DNA from: Gammaproteobacteria bacterium
Lineage (GTDB): Bacteria > Pseudomonadota > Gammaproteobacteria > SZUA-152
Assembly (NCBI GenBank): GCA_021647705.1
Contig: JAKIUF010000030.1
Coordinates: 1-55,182 of the forward strand
DNA: 55,182 bases
Reading direction: 5' to 3'
In this document: positions 38,564 through 49,875 of the stretch, piece by piece
Layout: each line of letters starts with the position of its first letter
Numbering within the stretch: position 1 is the stretch's first letter
The notes under the pieces: generated by a model
What the model saw: the letters and a program-made list of their open reading frames with translations, nothing else
Told to the model about the DNA's origin: nothing
The model's database searches: none
Translations under genes and position numbers: made by a program

Positions 38564-40627
38564 ATGAAACCTCTGCGCGTTTTATTAGTTGAAGATTCTG
38601 AAGACGATGCGGCGCTGACTTTGCGCCAGCTCAAAAAAGGAGGTTATGCACCTTCTTTCAAAAGGGTGGATACTCCCGAGACCATGCGTGCGGCACTGGA
38701 AGTGCGCGAATGGGACATTATTCTTTCAGATTATAATATGCCGGAATTCAGTGGTCCTGCGGCGTTAGCTTTACTGCGCTCAACCGGTATTGATCTCCCA
38801 TTTATTGTTATTTCTGGTGCCATGGGTGAAGAATCCGCCGTCTCGCTAATGAAGGCTGGCGCACATGACTACATTATGAAAGATAATCTGGCACGACTGA
38901 TTCCCGCCATTGAACGCGAGTTGCGTGAAGCCGAAGTGCGTCGGGCCCGCCAACGGGCGGAAGCGGACCTGCATTTATCAGCCAAGGTTTTCGAGTCCAG
39001 TGTGGAAGGGGTGATGATCACGGACCGGGAAGCGCACATTCTGCGCGTGAACAAGGCTTTTACTGAAATTACCGGCTACTCGGAAGCGGATATTATTGGT
39101 CAATCCCCAAGCATTTTGCAGTCGGGCCGACATGACAAAGATTTTTACTGCGGTATGTGGCAGTCCATTAATGATAATGGTTACTGGCAGGGTGAGATCT
39201 GGAATCGGCGAAAAAACGGTGAAGTCTTTCCGGAATGGTTAACCATCAGCGCTGTGACTGACGCGACCGGGCAAATAACACATTTGATCGGTGGCTTCAC
39301 CGATATGAGCCAGCAAAAACAGGCGGAAGACCGTATTCAGCATCTTATGTATTACGATGCCTTGACGGACCTGCCCAACCGGGTGCTGTTTCGGGAGCGA
39401 TGCAAACAGGCTATGTCGCGCGCGCGGCATAGTGGCAAGCGTGTCGCCTATTTACATTTTGATATTGACCGGTTCGTGAATATTAATGACACCCTGGGGC
39501 ATCAGGTGGGCGACCAATTGTTGCAGCAGGTTGGACAACGTCTGGCAGGGTGCGTGCGCCAACAGGATTTGGTCGCCCGTTTTGTGGGTGATGAATTTGG
39601 TGTTGGAATAACGGACATTGACCGTAATGACCCGGTGGATGGTTTAGTGCAAACGGTGGTCGGCGCCTTTGCTGAGCCTTTTTACATACAAAGCCGGGAA
39701 ATTTTCTTAGTGCCGAGTATTGGCGTGTCTTTTTTCCCGGATGATGCGGTGGAGTTTGATGAACTGGCGCGCTTTGCAGATACCGCACTGCACGTTGCCA
39801 AGCGTGATGGTGGTGCCAACTACCATTTCTATCAAAAATCCATGAATGCAGATGCAGATGACCGGTTGTCAATGGAAAGCGCGTTGCGCCGTGCATTGGA
39901 GCGTGAGGAATTCCTGCTTTATTACCAGCCACAGTTATCACTGGAAACGGGGGCGATCATTGGTGTGGAAGCGTTGCTTCGCTGGCAGCGCAGCAGTGAC
40001 GACTTGGTCTTGCCAGGAAAATTTATCCCCCTATTGGAAGAAACCAGTTTGATTATTCCCGTGGGTGAGTGGGTTTTACGCCAAGCCTGCCGGGATCATC
40101 ATGCCTGGATTGACGCAGGGGGCAAACCTGTGCCGATTGCCGTTAACCTGTCGGCGCGCCAATTTCGTGATAAAGGTTTAGTGGCGATGATTCGTCAAGT
40201 GCTTGTAGAAAATAATGTTGCCGCAGAAATGATTGAGCTGGAAATTACTGAAAGCTGTGTGATGGAAGACCCTGAAGAAGCATTGTTAACCCTGGAGGTT
40301 TTCCATGAAATGGGGATTCGTATTGCCATTGATGATTTTGGTACTGGCTATTCATCGCTGAGCTATTTGAAGCGCTTCCCGCTGGATGTGTTAAAAATTG
40401 ATCAATCCTTTGTTGCAGATATTCCGACAGATGAAGACGATGCTGCCATTATCGATACGATTATTGCCATGGGGCACCGACTTAAACTTTCGGTAACGGC
40501 TGAAGGCGTGGAAACGGAAGCACAAGCCGATTTCCTACGCGCACATGGTTGTGACAATGTACAAGGTTATTTTTATGATCAGCCCATGCCCCGTGAAGAT
40601 TTGCTCATGCGGATTCCTGATGCATAG
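38564..40627 (+). CDS. REC-PAS-GGDEF-EAL protein, probable c-di-GMP phosphodiesterase
   Basis: 687 residues. The receiver has Asp56 in LSDYNMP. A PAS domain (about 145-265, FESSVEGVMITDREA) is followed by GGDEF with the altered motif FVGDEF, so cyclase activity is doubtful, although RxxD (RQQD) is kept. The EAL domain has all visible catalytic residues: EALLRW, NLSARQF, EITES, DDFGTGYSS, KIDQSF, AEGVET. It is thus predicted to break down c-di-GMP under control of phosphorylation. It precedes the kinase-like gene by 12 bases and is the first gene of a signalling block. Confidence 0.92.
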   Translation: MKPLRVLLVEDSEDDAALTLRQLKKGGYAPSFKRVDTPETMRAALEVREWDIILSDYNMPEFSGPAALALLRSTGIDLPFIVISGAMGEESAVSLMKAGAHDYIMKDNLARLIPAIERELREAEVRRARQRAEADLHLSAKVFESSVEGVMITDREAHILRVNKAFTEITGYSEADIIGQSPSILQSGRHDKDFYCGMWQSINDNGYWQGEIWNRRKNGEVFPEWLTISAVTDATGQITHLIGGFTDMSQQKQAEDRIQHLMYYDALTDLPNRVLFRERCKQAMSRARHSGKRVAYLHFDIDRFVNINDTLGHQVGDQLLQQVGQRLAGCVRQQDLVARFVGDEFGVGITDIDRNDPVDGLVQTVVGAFAEPFYIQSREIFLVPSIGVSFFPDDAVEFDELARFADTALHVAKRDGGANYHFYQKSMNADADDRLSMESALRRALEREEFLLYYQPQLSLETGAIIGVEALLRWQRSSDDLVLPGKFIPLLEETSLIIPVGEWVLRQACRDHHAWIDAGGKPVPIAVNLSARQFRDKGLVAMIRQVLVENNVAAEMIELEITESCVMEDPEEALLTLEVFHEMGIRIAIDDFGTGYSSLSYLKRFPLDVLKIDQSFVADIPTDEDDAAIIDTIIAMGHRLKLSVTAEGVETEAQADFLRAHGCDNVQGYFYDQPMPREDLLMRIPDA

Positions 40628-40639
40628 GTTGCAGCCAAA

Positions 40640-42181
40640 ATGAACTGGGGGCTATATACGCGGGTTATTGTCAGTCTTGGCTTTGTATTAAGCATTGCGA
40701 TGTTGCTATTGGGTTATGTGTTGTCACATGACTTTAATGAAACAGAAAAAATGGAAAGCATCGTTCTGACGCTTGGTGGCATATGGCTGTTAGTGATGAT
40801 GGTTATTCACCTGGTTTTACGCAGCACGATAAAACCTTTATCCGTGCTTACCAAGCACATTACAACGACATCGTTTGAAATGTCTCACCGGGAAATCAGT
40901 GCAGATTTACGCACCAGAAAAGATGAAATTGGCATATTGGCTTGTGCATTTGACGCAATGTTGTCAAATCTCCAAAAATCCTACTCCGATCTGGAAAAAA
41001 GAGAAGAGCACTACCGGCGGCTAGTGGAAACAGCCAATGTTATCCCCTGGGAACTAGATTTAAACTCACGACGTATAACCTATGTAGGGCCACAGGCGAA
41101 AGCCATGCTGGGTTATGAAATTAGCGATTGGTATGAAGAAAAATTTTGGTTGAATCATGTTTGTGAAGAAGATGTCGATTTGGCCGAGAAGTTTTATCGT
41201 CATGTTGCCTCCATTGATGAAGGTCGTGAAATTGAATATCGAATAACGCATGCCAATGGCAAAGTAGTCTGGGTGCGTGATTGTGTGCATAAATCGACGT
41301 ATGACCCACGTTCACCCACATTACAGGGATTGATGTTTGATGTTGATGAAAGAGTCAAGGCTCGCCAGGAACTGCAACGTTATCGAGAGCATTTGGAAAG
41401 AGTGGTGAATGAGCGCACGGCTGAATTGTTAACAGTTAACCAGGAGCTACAGTCATTTGCACATTCTTTATCTCAGGATTTGCGTGTGCCGCTACGTGCT
41501 ATCAATGGGTTTAGTGAAGCCATGCTGGAAGACTATGGCAATGTTGTCGGTGATGAGGGACGAAATTATTTAAAGAGGATCTGTGGCGGAACAAAAAGAA
41601 TGGGGAAAATGATCGATGATATTTTGATTCTTTCCCGAGTTACCCGTAAAGAATTGTATCGGAAAAAAATCAACCTTTCTCAAATGGCCGCTGAGGTGGA
41701 AAAAAACCTTAGAGAAGAATATACAGACCATCAGGTGGAATTCATTGTTGACAAGCAATTGACCGCCTATGGTGATGAAGAATTAATGGAAATATTACTG
41801 AATCACTTGTTGAGTAATGCCTGGAAATTCACTCAAAAAGTGGATCATCCGCGTGTTGAGGTTACGGGTGAATTATCCACAGGAAATATGGTTTATACGG
41901 TAAAGGATAACGGTGTCGGCTTTGATATGCAGTACGTCGAGAAATTATTTTTACCCTTCAGGAGATTACACAACGTTGAGGAATTTGAAGGCGTGGGCGT
42001 TGGCTTGGCAGCGGTAAAACGCATTGTATTGCGACACGGTGGGAAAGTCTGGGGAGAAGGGAAAGTTGATGGCGGTGCCGTGTTTTGCTTCACACTGGCA
42101 GAATCTTCGCCTGAGCAACAAAATTCTGGTAAGAAAATTTCGCTGGATAGCGATATCATCGATATGGGCGATGTAAGTTGA
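40640..42181 (+). CDS. Degenerate sensor histidine kinase lacking the phosphoacceptor His
   Basis: 513 residues: two transmembrane helices (about 8-28 and 42-60), HAMP-like region, PAS domain (about 125-240), coiled coil and a kinase core of the Cph1/bacteriophytochrome type. In the H-box the usual SHDLR is SQDLR: Gln279 (CAG at 41474-41476) replaces the phosphorylated His. The ATPase part is intact: LLSNAWKFT, DNGVGFD and EGVGVGLAAV. A His at 275 (FAHSL) cannot replace it by position. It may be a pseudokinase that binds ATP and regulates a partner, or transfers phosphate by another residue. It sits between two REC genes. Confidence 0.9.
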   Translation: MNWGLYTRVIVSLGFVLSIAMLLLGYVLSHDFNETEKMESIVLTLGGIWLLVMMVIHLVLRSTIKPLSVLTKHITTTSFEMSHREISADLRTRKDEIGILACAFDAMLSNLQKSYSDLEKREEHYRRLVETANVIPWELDLNSRRITYVGPQAKAMLGYEISDWYEEKFWLNHVCEEDVDLAEKFYRHVASIDEGREIEYRITHANGKVVWVRDCVHKSTYDPRSPTLQGLMFDVDERVKARQELQRYREHLERVVNERTAELLTVNQELQSFAHSLSQDLRVPLRAINGFSEAMLEDYGNVVGDEGRNYLKRICGGTKRMGKMIDDILILSRVTRKELYRKKINLSQMAAEVEKNLREEYTDHQVEFIVDKQLTAYGDEELMEILLNHLLSNAWKFTQKVDHPRVEVTGELSTGNMVYTVKDNGVGFDMQYVEKLFLPFRRLHNVEEFEGVGVGLAAVKRIVLRHGGKVWGEGKVDGGAVFCFTLAESSPEQQNSGKKISLDSDIIDMGDVS

Positions 42182-42629
42182 TCATGTAAACACACTCACA
42201 GATCAGGCGTTACAACACTGTTGGTATGGTTTATTGGATAGTAAAAAAAGCCGTTGGTGTTGTGTTGTCTGGTGTTGTTAAAAAGCATGTATATTTTAAG
42301 GGAATTATGAAATGTACCCTTTCAGGGTGTATACGCATAAAAAGTGGATTGCTTGTAGGGTTGGGGTATGCTGTGCATAGCATTAATTCGGTATTCTATT
42401 TTACGTTATCGGAATCGCCTTTGAATGTTGTGTTATAACGTTGTATTGGTTGGATATATTAGAAAAATCGTTATTCCAGCATAATAGTTGTGGTTTTAGG
42501 GGGTGCAGGGGCTGGTATTTTACCACCCATGTATAGCTGGAAAATAACCCTGTATCGACTAGATTAGGGGGAGAGCTTTTGCTTTTTGGGCAGGAACGAC
42601 AATAAAGCGAAAGACAAAAGGGGAAATGG
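42182..42629. other. Non-coding gap before the receiver gene
   Basis: 448 bases without a convincing gene. The 70-codon frame at 42226-42438 has no recognisable sequence and no clear ribosome site. A small inverted repeat (ATGCT-GTGCAT-AGCAT, near 42369) lies after GTAGGGTTGGGG and may be a degraded REP. The last 30 bases contain the ribosome site AAAGGGG for the next gene. Confidence 0.55.
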
Positions 42630-43079
42630 ATGTCGGATAAAGTTATTTTATTGGTTGAAGATAACCCGGATGATGAGGCTCTGACTCTGCGAGCCTTGAA
42701 AAAAAATAATATTCTTAATGAAGTCGTTGTGGCGCACGATGGCGAAGAAGCCTTGGAATACTTGTTTGGCACTGGAAAATATGAGGGGCGTGATACCAGT
42801 ATTCAGCCCCAAGTAATTTTACTGGACCTGCAATTACCAAAAATCAACGGGCTTGAAGTGCTTAAACGTTTGCGCGCGGACAAGCGCACGATGCTGCAAC
42901 CTGTGGTGATTCTCACCACCTCCAGTGAAGAAATGGACGTTATCGCCAGTTATGAAAACGGAGCCAATAGCTATACCCGTAAGCCAGTGGATTTCAATCA
43001 ATTCATTGAAGCGGTAAAGCAGCTTGGTTTGTATTGGCTGGTATTGAATGAAGCACCTGTAAAGCGAGGGGGAAATTGA
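42630..43079 (+). CDS. Single-domain response regulator (Rcp1/CheY-like)
   Basis: 149-residue stand-alone receiver of the Rcp1 type. The acidic pocket is VEDNPDD (9-15), phosphoacceptor Asp66 is in LLDLQLP, and the Thr/Lys positions are TTSS and TRKPVDF. Rcp1-type receivers usually pair with phytochrome-like kinases, and the upstream kinase core is of that type, although its acceptor His is missing. The next gene starts two bases after its stop, so they are an operon. Confidence 0.92.
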   Translation: MSDKVILLVEDNPDDEALTLRALKKNNILNEVVVAHDGEEALEYLFGTGKYEGRDTSIQPQVILLDLQLPKINGLEVLKRLRADKRTMLQPVVILTTSSEEMDVIASYENGANSYTRKPVDFNQFIEAVKQLGLYWLVLNEAPVKRGGN

Positions 43080-43081
43080 GT

Positions 43082-44785
43082 ATGGCGGTATCACTGCGAG
43101 TTCTCCTTGTTGAAGACTCTGAAAATGATGCCATGTTACTCAAGCGAGAGTTACAACGGGCAGAATATGAGCCGATTGTGCTACGGGTCGATAGTGGTGA
43201 GTCAATGCAGCTAGCCTTGCAAAATCAAAATTGGGATATCGTTGTCACTGATCATAATATTCCTGGTTTTAGTTCTGAAGAGGCCATTGAGATCGCGCTG
43301 AAATGTAAACCGGATATTCCCATCATTATTGTTTCCGGCAGCATCGGTGAAGACATTGCTGTGGCGGCCATGAAAATGGGCGCACACGATTATATTATGA
43401 AGGACAACCTTAAGCGCCTTGTGCCTGCCATTGAGCGGGAATTGCGCGAAGCGGAAATGCGGCGCTCCCATCGGCTTGCGGAAGCAACGATTCATCATCT
43501 TGCCTATCATGACCAGTTAACCGGCTTGGTTAATCGTAATGAATTTGACCGACATCTCAATAATGCCCTGGATTCCGCCAAGTGCAATAATCTCTCGCAT
43601 GTATTGCTGTATCTGGACCTGGATCAATTCAAAGTGATCAATGATACCTGCGGCCATCAGGCCGGTGATGAATTGTTGAGTCAGCTGGCGTTGTTGTTAC
43701 GGGAAGAGGTGCGTGGCAATGATATTCTGGCACGCCTGGGGGGGGATGAGTTTGGCTTGTTGCTGGAAAACTGTCCATTGGATAAGGCAAAGGTGATTGC
43801 TGAAGACCTGCGGGAACTCGTCAGTGATTTTCGTTTTGTTTGGCGTGATAAAAGTTTCAGTATTGGTGTCAGTATCGGTATGGCTAAAATCACCAAAGAT
43901 GCACAAGGCGCTGATGAAGTGCTGGGTGCTGCTGACATAGCCTGCTATGCGGCGAAAGACATGGGCCGTGACCGAGTGCATGTGTACAAGGATGATGATT
44001 CAGAATTGTTGCGGCGACAAACTGAAATGCAATGGGTTTCTCGCATAAAGGATGCGCTGGAAGAGGGGCGGTTTGTATTGCATCAGCAACAGATGCGCTC
44101 ACTCAGTCGCCTTAATGGTACGGTTCAGTGCGCTGAGTTTTTGGTGCGCATGCTAGATGAACAAGACAATATTATTATGCCGGGTGCCTTTATTCCGGCC
44201 GCGGAACGTTACGGCATCATGCCCTTGCTGGATCGTTGGGTGGTGCGTTCTGCTATCGCCTATTTGGCCGGCAATTTGTCAGAAAATGAAAAAAAAGACA
44301 GCATATTTTTCATTAATCTTTCGGGAGGGTCTCTCAGTGATAACGACTTTTCGACCTATATCCGACAACAAATCACACACTACAATATTCCGCCCGAATT
44401 ATTATGTTTTGAAATTACCGAAACGGCAGCGATATCGAACTTGAGTGAGGCGGTTAAGTTTATCAATGAAGTACGCAGCTTCGGCTGCCAGTTTGCACTG
44501 GATGATTTTGGCTCCGGCTTGAGTTCTTTTTCCTATCTTAAAACACTGCCCGTAGACTATTTGAAAATAGATGGTTCATTTGTGCGTGATATTGAAATTG
44601 ACCCAATGAATTTCGCAATTGTGCAGGCAATCAATGAAATTGGTCATGTTGCTGGTTTGCACACCATTGCAGAATTTGTTGAGAATGAAAAAACCTTGGA
44701 AAGCCTGCGTGGGATTGGTGTTGATTTTGTACAAGGTTATTGTATTGCTCATCCGTTGGCCGTGCATTCGAGAGTTACGGTCTAG
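43082..44785 (+). CDS. REC-GGDEF-EAL protein, probable diguanylate cyclase
   Basis: About 567 residues. Receiver Asp57 is in VVTDHNIP. The GGDEF domain is intact (ARLGGDEFGLLL) with an RxxD inhibitory site (RGND) five residues ahead. The EAL domain has AEFLVRM in place of EALLR, but keeps NLSGGS, EITET, DDFGSGLSS, KIDGSF and AEFVE. It therefore likely makes c-di-GMP; whether it also cleaves it is unclear. I took ATG 43082, with GAGGGGG upstream, over the earlier TTG at 43076. It is the mirror image of the first REC-GGDEF-EAL protein of this block. Confidence 0.9.
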   Translation: MAVSLRVLLVEDSENDAMLLKRELQRAEYEPIVLRVDSGESMQLALQNQNWDIVVTDHNIPGFSSEEAIEIALKCKPDIPIIIVSGSIGEDIAVAAMKMGAHDYIMKDNLKRLVPAIERELREAEMRRSHRLAEATIHHLAYHDQLTGLVNRNEFDRHLNNALDSAKCNNLSHVLLYLDLDQFKVINDTCGHQAGDELLSQLALLLREEVRGNDILARLGGDEFGLLLENCPLDKAKVIAEDLRELVSDFRFVWRDKSFSIGVSIGMAKITKDAQGADEVLGAADIACYAAKDMGRDRVHVYKDDDSELLRRQTEMQWVSRIKDALEEGRFVLHQQQMRSLSRLNGTVQCAEFLVRMLDEQDNIIMPGAFIPAAERYGIMPLLDRWVVRSAIAYLAGNLSENEKKDSIFFINLSGGSLSDNDFSTYIRQQITHYNIPPELLCFEITETAAISNLSEAVKFINEVRSFGCQFALDDFGSGLSSFSYLKTLPVDYLKIDGSFVRDIEIDPMNFAIVQAINEIGHVAGLHTIAEFVENEKTLESLRGIGVDFVQGYCIAHPLAVHSRVTV

Positions 44786-45558
44786 CCCGGCAGTATGGCA
44801 GACCGGAGAGGGGCAGCAAGGTGAGCGGCTGATCTTCCTTTGCTGCGAGAAGAAGGCCGACGTAACAAACTACTCGCAATACTGCTCAAATCAGTCGCAA
44901 TTTCCCCATCTTTTGCTGCGCCATTTTTTGCCTCCTCAATATGATGACGGTTGTGCAATAAATAACCACCACATTCCAGTTTTAATGAGAGCAGAACCTG
45001 CGCATTCTTGTATAAAAAACCAAAAAAACGTTTGGCTGTTGCCTTGGTTTGTGCGCCGAGTATGATGACATAAATGGTGAAATCAGTGTTTATTGAGGCG
45101 ATAAATGCTAACTGCTCATAGGCAATGCGTACGCCGCTCAATGAGGCTTGTACAGCGATGAGCAGGCAATCACTTTTTAGTGTCAGAGTGGTTGAAGGTG
45201 ATAATACCGGGATCAAGCAATAATCAGGCAAGTCGATTTCTGCGCCATCTTTGAGAGTGTTTAATGTGGGCGTTATATTGTTTGCCAGCACAGAACGATG
45301 ATGAGAAGCCGCCAGACAATTTTCAATTTTTAATACCATGCTGCTGCTGTTCTGGCAATTAAGGGCGTGGCTTAATTCATAGGCAATATAGTCATCATTT
45401 CTTGAGCCCAGTAATACCGGAATAATGGTGGTGTTTTTCCAAATTGGCAGATGCTCATTGGTATCGTTGAGAAAATAATGGCTGATTTGGGCAAGGCGGT
45501 GCTTTGAAAATGGGGTATTGCTTTCAGCATGTGCATGATTAGGGGTTATTTTTAACAT
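44782..45558 (-). CDS. MinD/ParA-like protein without a Walker A motif
   Basis: 258 residues of no certain family. The pattern resembles the second half of MinD/ParA folds: CLIPVLSPSTTLTLKSDCLLIAVQAS, then VRIAYEQLAFIAS, then IYVIILGAQTKATAKR. The segment where the P-loop should be (IIPVLLGSRNDDYIAYELSHAL) lacks GKT/S. It follows the ParA-CBM gene by 83 bases on the same strand and may be a catalytically dead partner. The C-terminal tail is Ser/Arg/Ala-rich. It overlaps the end of the convergent REC-GGDEF-EAL gene by four bases. The fold assignment is my inference. Confidence 0.6.
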   Translation of the reverse strand: MLKITPNHAHAESNTPFSKHRLAQISHYFLNDTNEHLPIWKNTTIIPVLLGSRNDDYIAYELSHALNCQNSSSMVLKIENCLAASHHRSVLANNITPTLNTLKDGAEIDLPDYCLIPVLSPSTTLTLKSDCLLIAVQASLSGVRIAYEQLAFIASINTDFTIYVIILGAQTKATAKRFFGFLYKNAQVLLSLKLECGGYLLHNRHHIEEAKNGAAKDGEIATDLSSIASSLLRRPSSRSKGRSAAHLAAPLRSAILPG

Positions 45559-45641: not shown

Positions 45642-46814
45642 CTACCTGCCAACATGCAGCATGGAGTTATGTACGCCCAATGGGTTTAGTATCTGGTCTG
45701 GATTGGTAGGGTCGTTTCGCCATTTTCCATCGATAATCAGGCGATATTGATATTCACCCGCCGGGGCAAAAAATATTTTATGTACGGTGTTATTTTTTTG
45801 GATCGTTTCGATGCCTTCATCCGGAATCCAGTTATTGAATTCACCGGCCAGTTTTAAATTGCGGTTTATATAATTTTTATAAGTGAGCTCAACCCGGTGT
45901 AGTGTGTCAGAGCAGTTATTTTTTTCAGAAATGCTTGTTGGGTGATTATTTTCTTTGGTGTTGGCAGTGGCCGTCGGTGAGGAAAGTGTAAGCGATTGAG
46001 CGATAACATCGATGCAGTTTATCAGCCAGGAGGCTTCAGCCTGTACCGTGGATTTTTCATCCGTTGATCGACGAATAATTTCATCGGTCAGGCCCTGATA
46101 ATCTCTGGTCGCGATGGATGCTTTATCAAAGTGAAGAATCGGTTGCCCTGCACATGCCGCTTCTTTAAGTCGTACCGTGTTGTGAATCGGGCTAGGTAAT
46201 ATGTTTTCCCGGTATCGTTCCCATATGCCCAGTAAAAACTCCCTGCAAAGACGGGTACATCTGTCAACCAGTGTTGGCAATATATTAATTTCGATATCGA
46301 GCCCATATTCTTGTGAGAGCGAATCCACCGCCTCGCTAAGGTGTTCGATGCCATCGATGGCAAACAGACTCATATCGATAGGTACAATAACCCGGTTTGC
46401 GGCACGTATAGCACTAATGGACAACAGATTAAGCGATGGAGGACAGTCAATAATGACAAAGTCATAAATAGACTCCACCGTTTGCAAATGGTCAGCGAGT
46501 TGTGGTTCATGTTTAGGCATGTCGGCGAGGACGTGCTCCACCGCGGCCAATGAAATAGTAGCGGGCAGCAAATCGACGCCTACAGTGACATTCATGATGA
46601 TGGCTTCTGCCAGAGGGAAATCCAGGGCAAGCACCTCATATAGTCCGCGCTTATCCTGTTTGCGCTGTCCCAGTCCCAGGGATGCATGACCCTGGGGATC
46701 AGCATCCACCAACAGGGTGCGCAAGCCTTTTTCACCCAGGCCCGCCGCCAGGTTAATCGCCGTTGTTGTTTTACCGCATCCACCTTTTTGATTTGCAATT
46801 GCAACAATATTCAT
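45642..46814 (-). CDS. ParA-family ATPase fused to a glycogen-binding (CBM48/AMPK-beta-like) domain
   Basis: 390 residues in one frame. Residues 1-265 are a ParA ATPase: deviant Walker A NQKGGCGKTT with the signature Lys10 and Lys15, VDADPQGHAS, and Walker B FVIIDCPPS. A linker (270-305, rich in Asn, Thr, Ser) follows, and residues 307-388 resemble the AMPK-beta/isoamylase N-terminal carbohydrate-binding module: LKLAGEFNNWIPD (Trp329), PAGEYQYRLIIDGKW (Trp365), NPLGVHNSMLHV (Asn383). Those Trp and Asn match sugar-contact residues of the AMPK module. ParA proteins position cargo on the nucleoid; a module for alpha-glucan suggests glycogen as cargo, which is inference. A MerR-like gene precedes it. 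Confidence 0.9.
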   Translation of the reverse strand: MNIVAIANQKGGCGKTTTAINLAAGLGEKGLRTLLVDADPQGHASLGLGQRKQDKRGLYEVLALDFPLAEAIIMNVTVGVDLLPATISLAAVEHVLADMPKHEPQLADHLQTVESIYDFVIIDCPPSLNLLSISAIRAANRVIVPIDMSLFAIDGIEHLSEAVDSLSQEYGLDIEINILPTLVDRCTRLCREFLLGIWERYRENILPSPIHNTVRLKEAACAGQPILHFDKASIATRDYQGLTDEIIRRSTDEKSTVQAEASWLINCIDVIAQSLTLSSPTATANTKENNHPTSISEKNNCSDTLHRVELTYKNYINRNLKLAGEFNNWIPDEGIETIQKNNTVHKIFFAPAGEYQYRLIIDGKWRNDPTNPDQILNPLGVHNSMLHVGR

Positions 46815-46891: not shown

Positions 46892-47359
46892 TTACTGGTT
46901 AACCGCTGTATTTTTATGCGTGTTTTCCGATGTGGTAAAAAGCTCTTTTTGTTCCGGCTCTACAATGCCACGGCTTGTGGCTGCCTCGCGTTCCAGTTCT
47001 GCTACGGAATAAATCCATTCTTGACCGGTGAGTGCTTCGAAAGCAGTTTTCCGGTGTAGTACCAGAATCATGTCACCCGTAGCAACGAGAGAAAGCTCGG
47101 TAAGCGGTATGTTGCAAGAGGGTAGAAAGTCCGTCAGAGACGTAATACTTTTACGGATGCGCTGTACCGAAACACCTGCATCAATCAGTTTTCGGGCAGT
47201 TTTGAGTATCAATAAATCAGCAAAGGAATAGCGTGCATGACCACCAGAGGTGCGTTGCTTAGGAATGATCAAACCGGTTTTTCGCCAGTAACCGAGTTGA
47301 CGTTGGCTGAGCCTGGTGATGTGCATCACCTGCTGACAGGTATAACCTGTTTCGCTCAT
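46892..47359 (-). CDS. MerR-type DNA-binding protein
   Basis: 155 residues. The N-terminal winged helix is of the MerR type (CQQVMHITRLSQRQLGYWRK, then GGHARYSFADLLILK). The C-terminal part (about 80-155) has no metal-binding Cys pattern and ends in a polar tail, so it is not a metal sensor. It lies 77 bases before the ParA-CBM gene on the same strand. It may regulate that operon, or serve as the DNA- or partner-binding protein of the ParA system, as small DNA-binding proteins do in other ParA loci. Confidence 0.85.
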   Translation of the reverse strand: MSETGYTCQQVMHITRLSQRQLGYWRKTGLIIPKQRTSGGHARYSFADLLILKTARKLIDAGVSVQRIRKSITSLTDFLPSCNIPLTELSLVATGDMILVLHRKTAFEALTGQEWIYSVAELEREAATSRGIVEPEQKELFTTSENTHKNTAVNQ

Positions 47360-47683
47360 CCCTTCCCTCCATTATTTTTTAGTGGATGTAATTTTGTGAC
47401 AGCGGCTGTTATTAGCGGCTTATCATCAGCAATATGTGATTGATATTAGTAAGGATTCAGTGCAGTGTGGTCGGTGATTAAAGAATGTCAAGAAAAAGCA
47501 GACAAAAAATACCATTTTTGTTTGTTTTGATATCAGGCGTGTTCTATCGCCATAAAAAGGCCACAGCCTTAATCTCAAATAAGAATTAGGGAATCAATAA
47601 ATATTATTTTTTAAAATAACGATGGGCTGTTAATGTGTATTCCACATGGCCCCTACATGTAACTGCTACTTATAAGAACTGAC

Positions 47684-47726
47684 AAAAAGCCGCAACGCCC
47701 CCATCGTTGCGGCTTTTTGTTTTTTG
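47684..47726 (+). terminator. Strong rho-independent terminator, no obvious gene upstream
   Basis: Perfect stem GCCGCAACG / CGTTGCGGC (47689-47697 and 47705-47713), flanked by AAAAA on the left and TTTTTGTTTTTT on the right. It could work in both directions, but better on the plus strand. The 320 bases upstream carry no protein gene, so it may end a small RNA. Confidence 0.82.
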
Positions 47727-48224: not shown

Positions 48225-48498
48225 ATTCCACGACTGATAGTCCTTCAGTTCGTCACCTTTAATCTCTTTTTTATGTGTTACCTCTCAAGGTTTTTTGGCA
48301 TTTTGCGGGTTGATTTGTACCGACTGCATGCGTCTGTTTTATCGTCAGGCATCCTTCGGCTTTCCAGAATTGATTGGCTGGGTTACCGTATATATTGCCA
48401 CGGAAATGTACAGTATTGCCCTGCACGGACGATGTTGATTGCGAGTGGAAATAATTGAAAGCAAACGACAATATAACAATCTGGGAACCCGCCAAGCA

Positions 48499-49875
48499 AT
48501 GACTTCAACCAGCACAGAAGATATCCTGAAATCGGCTTACGCACTGCTCGACAGCGCCGTGCTGTCGTACAAAGGTGAGCCAACTGGCACCGCTGCCGCG
48601 TTAGATGACCGCGTCGCTGCGCCGAATTACGAAGAATGCTTTGTACGTGATTTTGTACCCAGCGCGCTGGTGTTTTTATGCGATGGCAAACCTGAAATCG
48701 TGCGCAACTTCCTGAAAATGGTGGTGAGTCTGCGTCATCAACAATCCGTTATGGAAGGTCACGAACGTGCGCTGGGCCTGATGCCCGCCAGTTTTCGTGT
48801 GCCGGGTGAACAGGATGTGGACGGTACACCCACCGCTGATTTTGGCGAATTGGCTATTGGCCGGGTGGCACCCGTGGACTCAGCGATGTGGTGGGTGATC
48901 CTGTTGCGCAGCTACGTGTTGGTGACAGGTGATGTTGCACTGGCCCACAGTGAAGAATTCCAGGAAAGTATGCGTTTTACCCTGGATTTGTATTTGAAGG
49001 AAAGCTTTGAAACCTCGCCCGCCATGCTAGTGCCGGACGCCTCGTTTATGATTGACCGGCGTATGGGAGTATACGGCCACCCACTGGAAATTCAGGCGCT
49101 ACTGTATGGCATGTTAAGTACCGCGCAGGAACTGTTATTGCCCACGCCGGAAAATGAACGATTGCTGTCCAACAGCAAAAAACGCATGCAAACTCTGCGC
49201 TCTTATGTACGTATTTATTATTGGCTGGACTCCCAGCGCCTGAACGAAATTCACCGTTTTCGATCCGAAGAATTTGGTGAAGATGCCGCCAATCACCTGA
49301 ATATTTACCCCGAAACCATTCCGCCCTGGATGGATGGCTGGTTGCCGCCAAACAGCGGTTACCTAGTGGGAAATCTGGGTGTAGGCCGTATGGATTTTCG
49401 GCTGTTTTCATTCGGCAACCTGCTGGCGATCATGTTTGGCCTGACCACCGACAAACAAGCCGAAAATATCATGAACCTGTATGATGCGCGCTGGAGTGAG
49501 TTGGTGGGCGAAATGCCGTTGAAAATTGTTTATCCCGCCCTGGATGGCGACAAGTGGCGTTACACTACGGGAAGTGACCCCAAAAACGTGCCCTGGTCAT
49601 ATCACAATGGAGGCAGTTGGCCGTGTCTGATCTGGGCATTTGTGGGTGCCGCCGTGCGTACCGGGCGGCATGATCTTGCGCGAAGAGTGATGGCGCAATC
49701 CATGGAAAAATTATGTAAAGATCAGTGGCCGGAATATTATGACGGGAAGAACGGCAGCCTGATCGGGCGGCGTTCCAATTTAAAACAGACCTGGTCAGCC
49801 AGTGCAGTGATTTTAGGTCACCAATTTCTGGAAGACCCGGATGCTCTGGCGGTGTTTGAATCCATTAACTTCTGA
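48499..49875 (+). CDS. Glycoside hydrolase family 100 neutral/alkaline invertase
   Basis: Cytoplasmic sucrose-hydrolysing enzyme of 458 residues that releases glucose and fructose. Matches to the plant and cyanobacterial family run along the whole protein: NYEECFVRDFVPSALVFL, GRVAPVDSAMWWVILLR, MIDRRMGVYGHPLEIQ, LNEIHRFRSEEFG, GEMPLKIVYP, PWSYHNGGSWP. Asp186 (MIDRRMG) and Glu412 (WPEYYDG) correspond to the catalytic pair Asp188/Glu414 described for Anabaena InvA. ATG 48499 is chosen; an in-frame GTG at 48439 would add a poorly conserved tail. The family is uncommon in proteobacteria, so gene transfer is possible. Confidence 0.92.
   Translation: MTSTSTEDILKSAYALLDSAVLSYKGEPTGTAAALDDRVAAPNYEECFVRDFVPSALVFLCDGKPEIVRNFLKMVVSLRHQQSVMEGHERALGLMPASFRVPGEQDVDGTPTADFGELAIGRVAPVDSAMWWVILLRSYVLVTGDVALAHSEEFQESMRFTLDLYLKESFETSPAMLVPDASFMIDRRMGVYGHPLEIQALLYGMLSTAQELLLPTPENERLLSNSKKRMQTLRSYVRIYYWLDSQRLNEIHRFRSEEFGEDAANHLNIYPETIPPWMDGWLPPNSGYLVGNLGVGRMDFRLFSFGNLLAIMFGLTTDKQAENIMNLYDARWSELVGEMPLKIVYPALDGDKWRYTTGSDPKNVPWSYHNGGSWPCLIWAFVGAAVRTGRHDLARRVMAQSMEKLCKDQWPEYYDGKNGSLIGRRSNLKQTWSASAVILGHQFLEDPDALAVFESINF

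Follow-up and report, generated by a model that had tools for sequence, protein, structure and literature searches.

In many uncultured bacteria, an ATPase of the positioning type ends in a domain of the sort with which the human energy sensor AMPK holds glycogen; such a protein may serve to place or sense storage sugar within the cell. Such a combination is encoded in the window analyzed here (the whole stretch of 55,182 nucleotides), and it raises the question of what the ATPase acts on. We know of no explanation for how glycogen is placed and inherited in bacteria; if a conserved ATPase carries a glycogen module of the AMPK type, both could be approached through a direct molecular handle.

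The fusion gene and its two domains

The preliminary description had recognized one frame joining a complete ParA ATPase to an AMPK-beta/CBM48-type domain, and matches to PF13614 and PF16561 bear this out. Its coordinates proved exact, whereas the strand, which it left unstated, is minus (Table 1); frame 1 of the plus strand is interrupted by stops over the same 45642-46814 interval.

Table 1 Features of the fusion locus and of the host's glycogen cluster.
Feature	Position	Strand	Basis or remark
ParA-CBM fusion gene, 390 aa	45642..46814	minus	Single open frame
ParA/Soj ATPase domain, about residues 1-257	46044..46814	minus	PF13614 E 1.2e-50; solved ParA/Soj structures, phmmer E 2.8e-44; Foldseek TM 0.95 of target
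Walker-A NQKGGCGKTT, residues 8-17 of the fusion	46764-46793	minus	
Low-confidence linker, residues 280-301	45912..45977	minus	pLDDT <50
AMPK-beta-type carbohydrate-binding module, Pfam match residues 317-388	45651..45866	minus	Predicted strands from residue 305
Candidate partner, 258 aa, 83 bp downstream of the fusion	44782..45558	minus	FlhG/MinD-like predicted fold; no Pfam family
N-terminal partner motif KHRLAQISHYFLND, residues 19-32	45463..45504	minus	Predicted helix 19-30, pLDDT about 50-60 (low confidence)
MerR-type HTH protein, 155 aa, 77 bp upstream of the fusion	46892..47359	minus	PF13411 E 1.7e-15
GH100 alkaline/neutral invertase, divergent neighbor	48439..49875	plus	PF12899 E 1.7e-187; not assigned to the system
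Host GlgA, directly after GlgB	23373-24080 of contig C15		

In the Pfam scan, the PF13614 match covers residues 1-173 of the fusion (E 1.2e-50). The deviant Walker A (KGG-x-GKT, with its signature lysine) and the Walker B (DCPPS) are both present, and K10, K15, D39, and D123 are invariant in a 37-member alignment; judged by these motifs, the domain belongs with the deviant Walker-A ATPases of the ParA/MinD family. The AlphaFold2 model of the fusion, based on a 37-row alignment, has a mean pLDDT of 88.3, and its ATPase part is nearest to Soj/ParA in Foldseek (TM of target 0.95 for 9a6n_A and 0.94 for 8ray_A; best match 37% identity). The predicted fold is Soj-like.

The C-terminus matches AMPK1_CBM (PF16561) with an E of 4.6e-8 and 33.6 bits, above the curated cut-off of 26.8, and on this score is a member of that family; it is the single PF16561 match in the host genome. 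When taken alone, the last 92 residues match the AMPK beta-2 module 2f15 (E 2.6e-10), and among the 23 sequences they matched in solved chains the 15 best are all AMPK beta chains. The three hallmark residues named in the preliminary description were correctly positioned: in the 2f15 alignment, Trp329, Trp365, and Asn383 fall on AMPK beta contact residues, which we take to be W100, W133, and N150 (K126, used below, follows the same assumed numbering). Structure prediction, which had been suggested as a check on this domain, gave a well-predicted fold with ten-residue pLDDT means of 82-97 from residue 301 onward and beta strands from residue 305 in the AlphaFold2 model. The preceding linker (residues 280-301) is probably flexible, as its model confidence suggests.

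Genes around the fusion and a candidate partner

The minus strand of the window reads MerR gene, 77 bp, ParA-CBM, 83 bp, and the 258-aa gene. No ParB is found beside the fusion in the window, the neighbors being the MerR gene and a gene for a protein without a Pfam family; the arrangement expected of ParABS, an adjacent ParB with ParB_N/HTH domains, is thus missing at this locus, and the host has a separate ParA-ParB pair elsewhere in its genome. A gene of the MerR blastp cluster lies at -1 or -2 in 25 of the 89 listed loci (three of these 25 are without the module). Clustering found no MerR gene in the Omnitrophota- and Planctomycetota-titled loci, and neither MerR nor partner stands beside the carriers L118, L119, and L122.

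The product of the 258-aa gene opens with the helical motif KHRLAQISHYFL, and other partners with RRLTDISHHFLS, RERLEKISHHFLT, etc. Its blastp cluster is represented at +1 or +2 in 25 listed loci, in 22 of them by the partner itself; the other three (L034, L042, and L044) were counted through a fourth gene, apparently merged into the cluster via a 462-aa ORF of L035 that holds both. The best Foldseek matches of the partner model (mean pLDDT 74) are FlhG, FleN, and MinD (E 1.5e-8), including FleQ-FleN complexes. A G-x4-GK[TS] P-loop is missing from 28 of 29 proteins of the cluster, some of which are the fourth gene, and from the window member. Since an hhalign comparison of partner and ATPase profiles gave a weak match (probability 2.4%, E 0.019), the MinD-like assignment rests on the Foldseek result for a model of pLDDT 74 and on two longer proteins encoded downstream, those of L072 and L047, that match ParA/CbiA weakly.

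A profile of the N-terminal motif was built from 14 stretches of 18 residues (loci up to L045) and used to search the starts of 3,525 ORFs in 66 loci, L046-L111, including four gammaproteobacterial ones (L049, L052, L054, and L063). Of these ORFs, 125 were adjacent, i.e., on the same strand and -150 to +500 bp downstream of the fusion. The seven best matches (E 4e-4 to 0.2) all lie directly downstream of fusions, in L066, L099, L056, L063, L051, L072, and L058; the cluster of the partner itself includes those of L063 and L072, and the other five fall outside it. Ranks 8 to 11 are unrelated ORFs, the adjacent genes of L047, L062, and L053 score lower, and below the seven best matches the profile mixes adjacent with unrelated ORFs. 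Partner starts in Desulfobacteraceae/Desulfobacterales-titled loci read MAKKSLGRGLDEISDIFLS, MREKSLGRGLEDISQIFLS, or MGKKRLGRGFNDISDIFLS, and a Myxococcota variant reads MPRDLADVLHYFLPE (L053 and L062). Planctomycete loci are mostly without an adjacent partner.

The host's chromosomal ParB starts with MVAKKRGLGRGLGALLDGS, and some of the downstream genes likewise carry LGRGL in their starts. We take the N-terminus of ParB to be its contact with ParA. By this resemblance, the N-terminal peptide of the downstream genes appears to be a ParB-like partner signature in many loci, so that the direct tether pictured in the preliminary description would be joined by a second component. In a preprint (PMC12204374), 20 N-terminal residues of McdB are reported as necessary and sufficient for McdA binding, and partners are described as contacting their ATPase via a positive charge at the N-terminus. 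Docking of the same kind was done in PMC10241942 with the first 30 residues of partner proteins; its main text does not contain the word glycogen.

Several other features were seen around the system. An invertase gene that by eye looks very similar to the divergent neighbor occupies the same place in genome G018 (L115 2-1327), and sucrose metabolism may neighbor the system by more than chance. A search for ParS-like or operator repeats over 1 kb of sequence upstream of MerR gave one terminator-like palindrome and otherwise chance-level promoter and terminator matches; the palindrome (47682-47720, in the 1 kb gap between the MerR and invertase genes) is perfect over 16 bp, has a 7-nt loop, and is terminator-like on both strands. 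Response-regulator/GGDEF/EAL and sensor-kinase-like genes converge on the system at 38564-44785 of the window, and genes of the same cluster adjoin it in several relatives. One to three genes after the fusion there is repeatedly a gene of cluster 4 (16 loci; L083 9412-9834), whose small product is Lys-rich and very basic at its N-terminus and shows a weak match of the EF-Tu domain-2 type. In several Gammaproteobacteria the partner is followed by the fourth operon gene, of about 190-200 aa and assigned to no Pfam family (L124 5060-5641); a similar-sized gene takes a like position in Myxococcota-titled loci (L050 9890-10492), and none was seen next to the window copy of the system.

Upstream genes differ among loci. 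In 13 listed loci, by title mainly Omnitrophota, the upstream genes include one from a cluster whose tested representative is a protein of the alginate-export type. A membrane protein with a cytosolic-looking N-terminus, e.g., MTRDEIYDHLAQVYLGKR, stands at -1 in 15 listed loci; the start of these proteins looks related to the partner motif, a likeness that we regard as a lead only.

Distribution of the family and association with glycogen genes

The best 80 relatives listed from a one-genome-per-species scan and 9 from the host's order were aligned, giving 89 rows, 87 of them distinct, since the window itself (L002) is included along with two identical pairs (L026/L032 and L008/L033). The module is present in 86 of the 89 listed relatives, a share biased upwards because the rows were collected by whole-length likeness to the fusion. 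In an evenly drawn class sample, taken to be gammaproteobacterial from the titles of loci in identical or closely related genomes, 17 of 369 genomes have an ATPase relative at E 1e-52 or better, the threshold that defines a carrier here (more distant carriers fall among the others), and 15 of these 17 relatives have the module; the sample overlaps the listed relatives, G226/L041, G285/L063, and G324/L037, for example, being judged the same genomes. The same fusion, which the preliminary description had proposed to seek in other genomes, is therefore widespread, and its recurrence, both among the relatives gathered by likeness (86 of 89) and among those of the class sample (15 of 17), makes chance or chimeric assembly very unlikely as its origin. 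Five relatives are without the module: L049, L052, and L054 of the listed set and L117 and L121 of the class sample.

The titles of listed relatives name Gammaproteobacteria, Nitrospirota/Nitrospira, Myxococcota, Deltaproteobacteria/Desulfobacterales, Planctomycetota, and Omnitrophota; other groups appear with one record each, and there is a Methanomassiliicoccales bin. Of 145 genomes sampled from the Omnitrophota-titled phylum of L083, 76 have a match that extends to the C-terminus (in one case divided between two contigs) and were counted as carriers, and 33 further genomes have long frames that match the ATPase only. A tblastn search of the fusion against 72,556 plasmid records gave four matches at E 1e-40 or better, none covering 80% of it; all four hit the ParA part only, and a plasmid origin was rejected. 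Decay of the locus was seen in genus g2 of the host's family, where three of seven genomes (G001, G003, and G006; loci L114, L112, and L113, respectively) keep the module, still in frame, and the ATPase tail with no ATPase in front. The module of L112 follows what by eye is an apparent MerR remnant, and in G005 of the same genus the fusion is intact.

Among the 86 listed rows with a module, W329 and W365 are each found in 86, the N383 position holds Asn in 77 rows and Asp in the other 9, and at position 358, aligned to AMPK K126, 71 rows have R, 9 have K, and 6 have Q (R/K in 80). The putative glucan-contact residues are thus kept across the family. Invariant tryptophans alone are no proof of glucan binding, which weighs against reading glycogen directly from these residues.

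In the host itself, a single cluster of contig C15 holds GH77, GH57, a GlgC-like nucleotidyltransferase, GlgB, and GlgA. In the class sample, GlgA (PF08323, E threshold 0.001) was detected in 221 of 369 genomes: in 17 of 17 with the ATPase versus 204 of 352 others (Fisher p 1.3e-4), and in 15 of 15 with the module versus 206 of 354 others (Fisher p 3.8e-4). When genomes G024-G180 (157) were taken as one per family, the enrichment remained at p 0.001-0.004, depending on the carrier families counted. In Omnitrophota (threshold 1e-40), 72 of 76 carriers have GlgA versus 53 of 69 others (p 0.0017), and adding the 33 ATPase-only genomes gives 101 of 109 versus 24 of 36 (p 3.1e-4). These counts take genomes as found, and incompleteness can inflate co-occurrence. 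Within the host's order, 23 of 24 genomes have GlgA, which makes a contrast at that level uninformative. Two open frames of the Omnitrophota sample, of 37,731 aa (G535:C3) and 57,099 aa (G543:C6), contain glycosyltransferase-5 matches.

Close to the fusion, glucan-enzyme genes lie at most two genes away in 8 of the 89 listed loci: seven Omnitrophota loci have a GH57-cluster gene at -2, confirmed by Pfam for one of them, and L107 has at +1 a 391-aa ORF in which a GlgB N-terminal domain and a CBM_48 domain were identified. Most loci, among them that of the window, showed no glucan gene beside the fusion. PF02922 (CBM_48) matches were rejected as a count of GlgB, many of them fitting the frame length and a partial match of the fusion's own module.

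A wider set of carriers was checked for GlgA in 50 of the 80 listed loci, for GH57 and phosphorylase in 36, and for GH13 in 16. PF08323 matched in 42 of the 50. Sixteen of these 42 matches are weak (best E 1e-22 to 1e-6), mostly in Planctomycetota- or Phycisphaerae-titled carriers, and may be other glycosyltransferases; for 11 of the 16, the contig also carries a GH57 gene at a distance of about 1-1.5 kb. Not every carrier has glycogen synthesis genes, as no PF08323 match was found in 8 of the 50, namely L107 and the seven carriers L046, L050, L053, L055, L057, L060, and L062. These seven belong to the ten carriers titled Myxococcota, Myxococcales, or Deltaproteobacteria, the other three having a weak match (L076 and L089) or a strong one (L099). 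All seven are without phosphorylase; GH57 is absent in three and partial or marginal in four (best E 7.4e-9), and GH13 is absent in six, L057 having one. For six of the seven, no convincing alpha-glucan gene of the families tested was found. The modules of all seven keep both tryptophans and the asparagine. Either alpha-glucan is made there by other gene families, or the module binds something else in these hosts.

The co-occurrence with glycogen genes expected in the preliminary description consequently holds in part: GlgA is enriched in Gammaproteobacteria and Omnitrophota, whereas 7 of 10 Myxococcota/Deltaproteobacteria-titled carriers are without it. That description had counted the fusion's occurrence in genomes without glycogen genes against its own proposal, and in view of this group the proposal is not supported for carriers in general. 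The glycogen link is supported, not universal, and because of these GlgA-less carriers our confidence in glycogen as the general cargo is below one half.

Possible roles and comparison with known systems

The sequences and models show a Soj-like ATPase that is intact, a linker that is probably flexible, a predicted beta-sandwich module in which the putative glucan-contact residues are conserved, and, in many loci, a downstream gene whose product has a conserved peptide at its N-terminus. Our best reading of this combination is a widespread, apparently undescribed ParA-type system that in most of its hosts would act on alpha-glucan; both the binding and the positioning are inferred. That it is a chromosomal system whose ATPase bears its own alpha-glucan hook and spaces or shares out storage glucan over the nucleoid has, in our judgment, just short of an even chance. 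The fuller version, in which a built-in glycogen hook and a partner with a ParB-type peptide would share storage glucan between daughters as the first ParA system with a polysaccharide cargo, is put forward tentatively, as somewhat improbable.

The ParA-partner machine may be the same while the module binds another polysaccharide or a protein, with a cargo that differs or varies by lineage. This would suit the six carriers that keep the binding residues with no convincing alpha-glucan genes of the families tested, and also the alginate-export-type cluster gene upstream in 13 listed loci and the -1 membrane protein in 15; the 15 closest solved relatives of the module, all AMPK beta chains, argue against it, as do the enrichment of GlgA in two groups and the GH57 or GlgB-like neighbors, and we regard it as unlikely. 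That the fusion is simply a partition ParA of a chromosome or plasmid, to which a further domain was added incidentally, is very improbable and largely refuted: the 32-37% identity of the ATPase domain to solved Soj/ParA proteins is what speaks for it, whereas the host has a separate ParA-ParB pair and no ParB next to the fusion, none of the four matches in 72,556 plasmid records covers 80% of the fusion, and 15 of the 17 relatives in the class sample retain the module.

FleN restrains FleQ, and together with AMPK-style glycogen sensing this offers a model for a glucan-sensing regulator, in which the module would report glycogen status to the ATPase, which with its MinD/FleN-like partner would control the MerR protein. 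The MerR-cluster gene upstream in 25 of 89 listed loci fits such a regulator, and so do FlhG and FleN, including FleQ-FleN complexes, as the best solved matches of the partner fold. The FleN likeness, however, fits the body of the partner and not the fusion, whose ATPase is nearer Soj than FleN; the partner peptide resembles that of ParB, and no MerR gene was detected in Omnitrophota- or Planctomycetota-titled loci. We consider regulation by glucan sensing rather unlikely.

If the system does position alpha-glucan, the ATP-bound fusion dimer would sit on the nucleoid like Soj while the module holds glycogen or another alpha-glucan, so that ATPase dimers would link particles to the nucleoid. 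The partner peptide would stimulate ATP hydrolysis, and the ATPase would be released and redistributed, as with ParB, McdB, and MinE; the MerR protein would regulate the operon. Storage-glucan particles would thereby be spaced and shared out over the nucleoid. Such a layout would be inverted, with the cargo hook on the ATPase, whereas usually the partner is on the cargo.

The open-access literature searched, as far as its texts were available, yielded no ParA with a carbohydrate-binding module or with glycogen as cargo, in line with the preliminary description, which knew of no ParA system with a glucan cargo, and nothing relevant to AMPK1 CBM with MerR or to the LGRGL motif. By that literature, the fusion combined with its own partner is apparently new. 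If the glucan reading is true, the cargo of the ParA/MinD family extends from DNA and protein organelles to polysaccharide, and the cargo hook has moved from the partner onto the ATPase. Even with a ligand other than glycogen, a conserved ParA-partner system in several phyla would be new biology.

Compared with known systems, the fusion shares its ATPase fold and motifs with Soj/ParA of chromosomal ParABS (2bek, 8ray, and 6iub; 32-37% identity), and several fusion loci have a partner gene with an LGRGL-like N-terminal peptide. Nevertheless, the system is not ParABS: its locus has no ParB, the ATPase has a C-terminal carbohydrate-binding module, and in many loci a MerR gene lies upstream. The module resembles the glycogen-binding domain of AMPK beta (PF16561; 2f15 and 1z0m) in sequence (E 2.6e-10) and in its equivalents of W100, W133, and N150, and differs in having Arg at the K126 equivalent in 71 of 86 listed modules and in being attached to an ATPase, not to a kinase scaffold. 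The downstream partner recalls FlhG/FleN, which are MinD-like, in its predicted fold (Foldseek E 1.5e-8), unlike which it starts with an ISHHFLS-type N-terminus and, in 28 of 29 proteins of its cluster, has no G-x4-GK[TS] P-loop. With McdA/McdB, which position carboxysomes, the fusion shares a ParA-type ATPase and the idea of a cargo other than DNA. To our knowledge McdA has no cargo-binding domain, whereas here the putative cargo hook is borne by the ATPase itself. McdB contacts McdA by a basic N-terminal helix, according to PMC12204374, and the partner of the fusion has a candidate counterpart in its N-terminal peptide.
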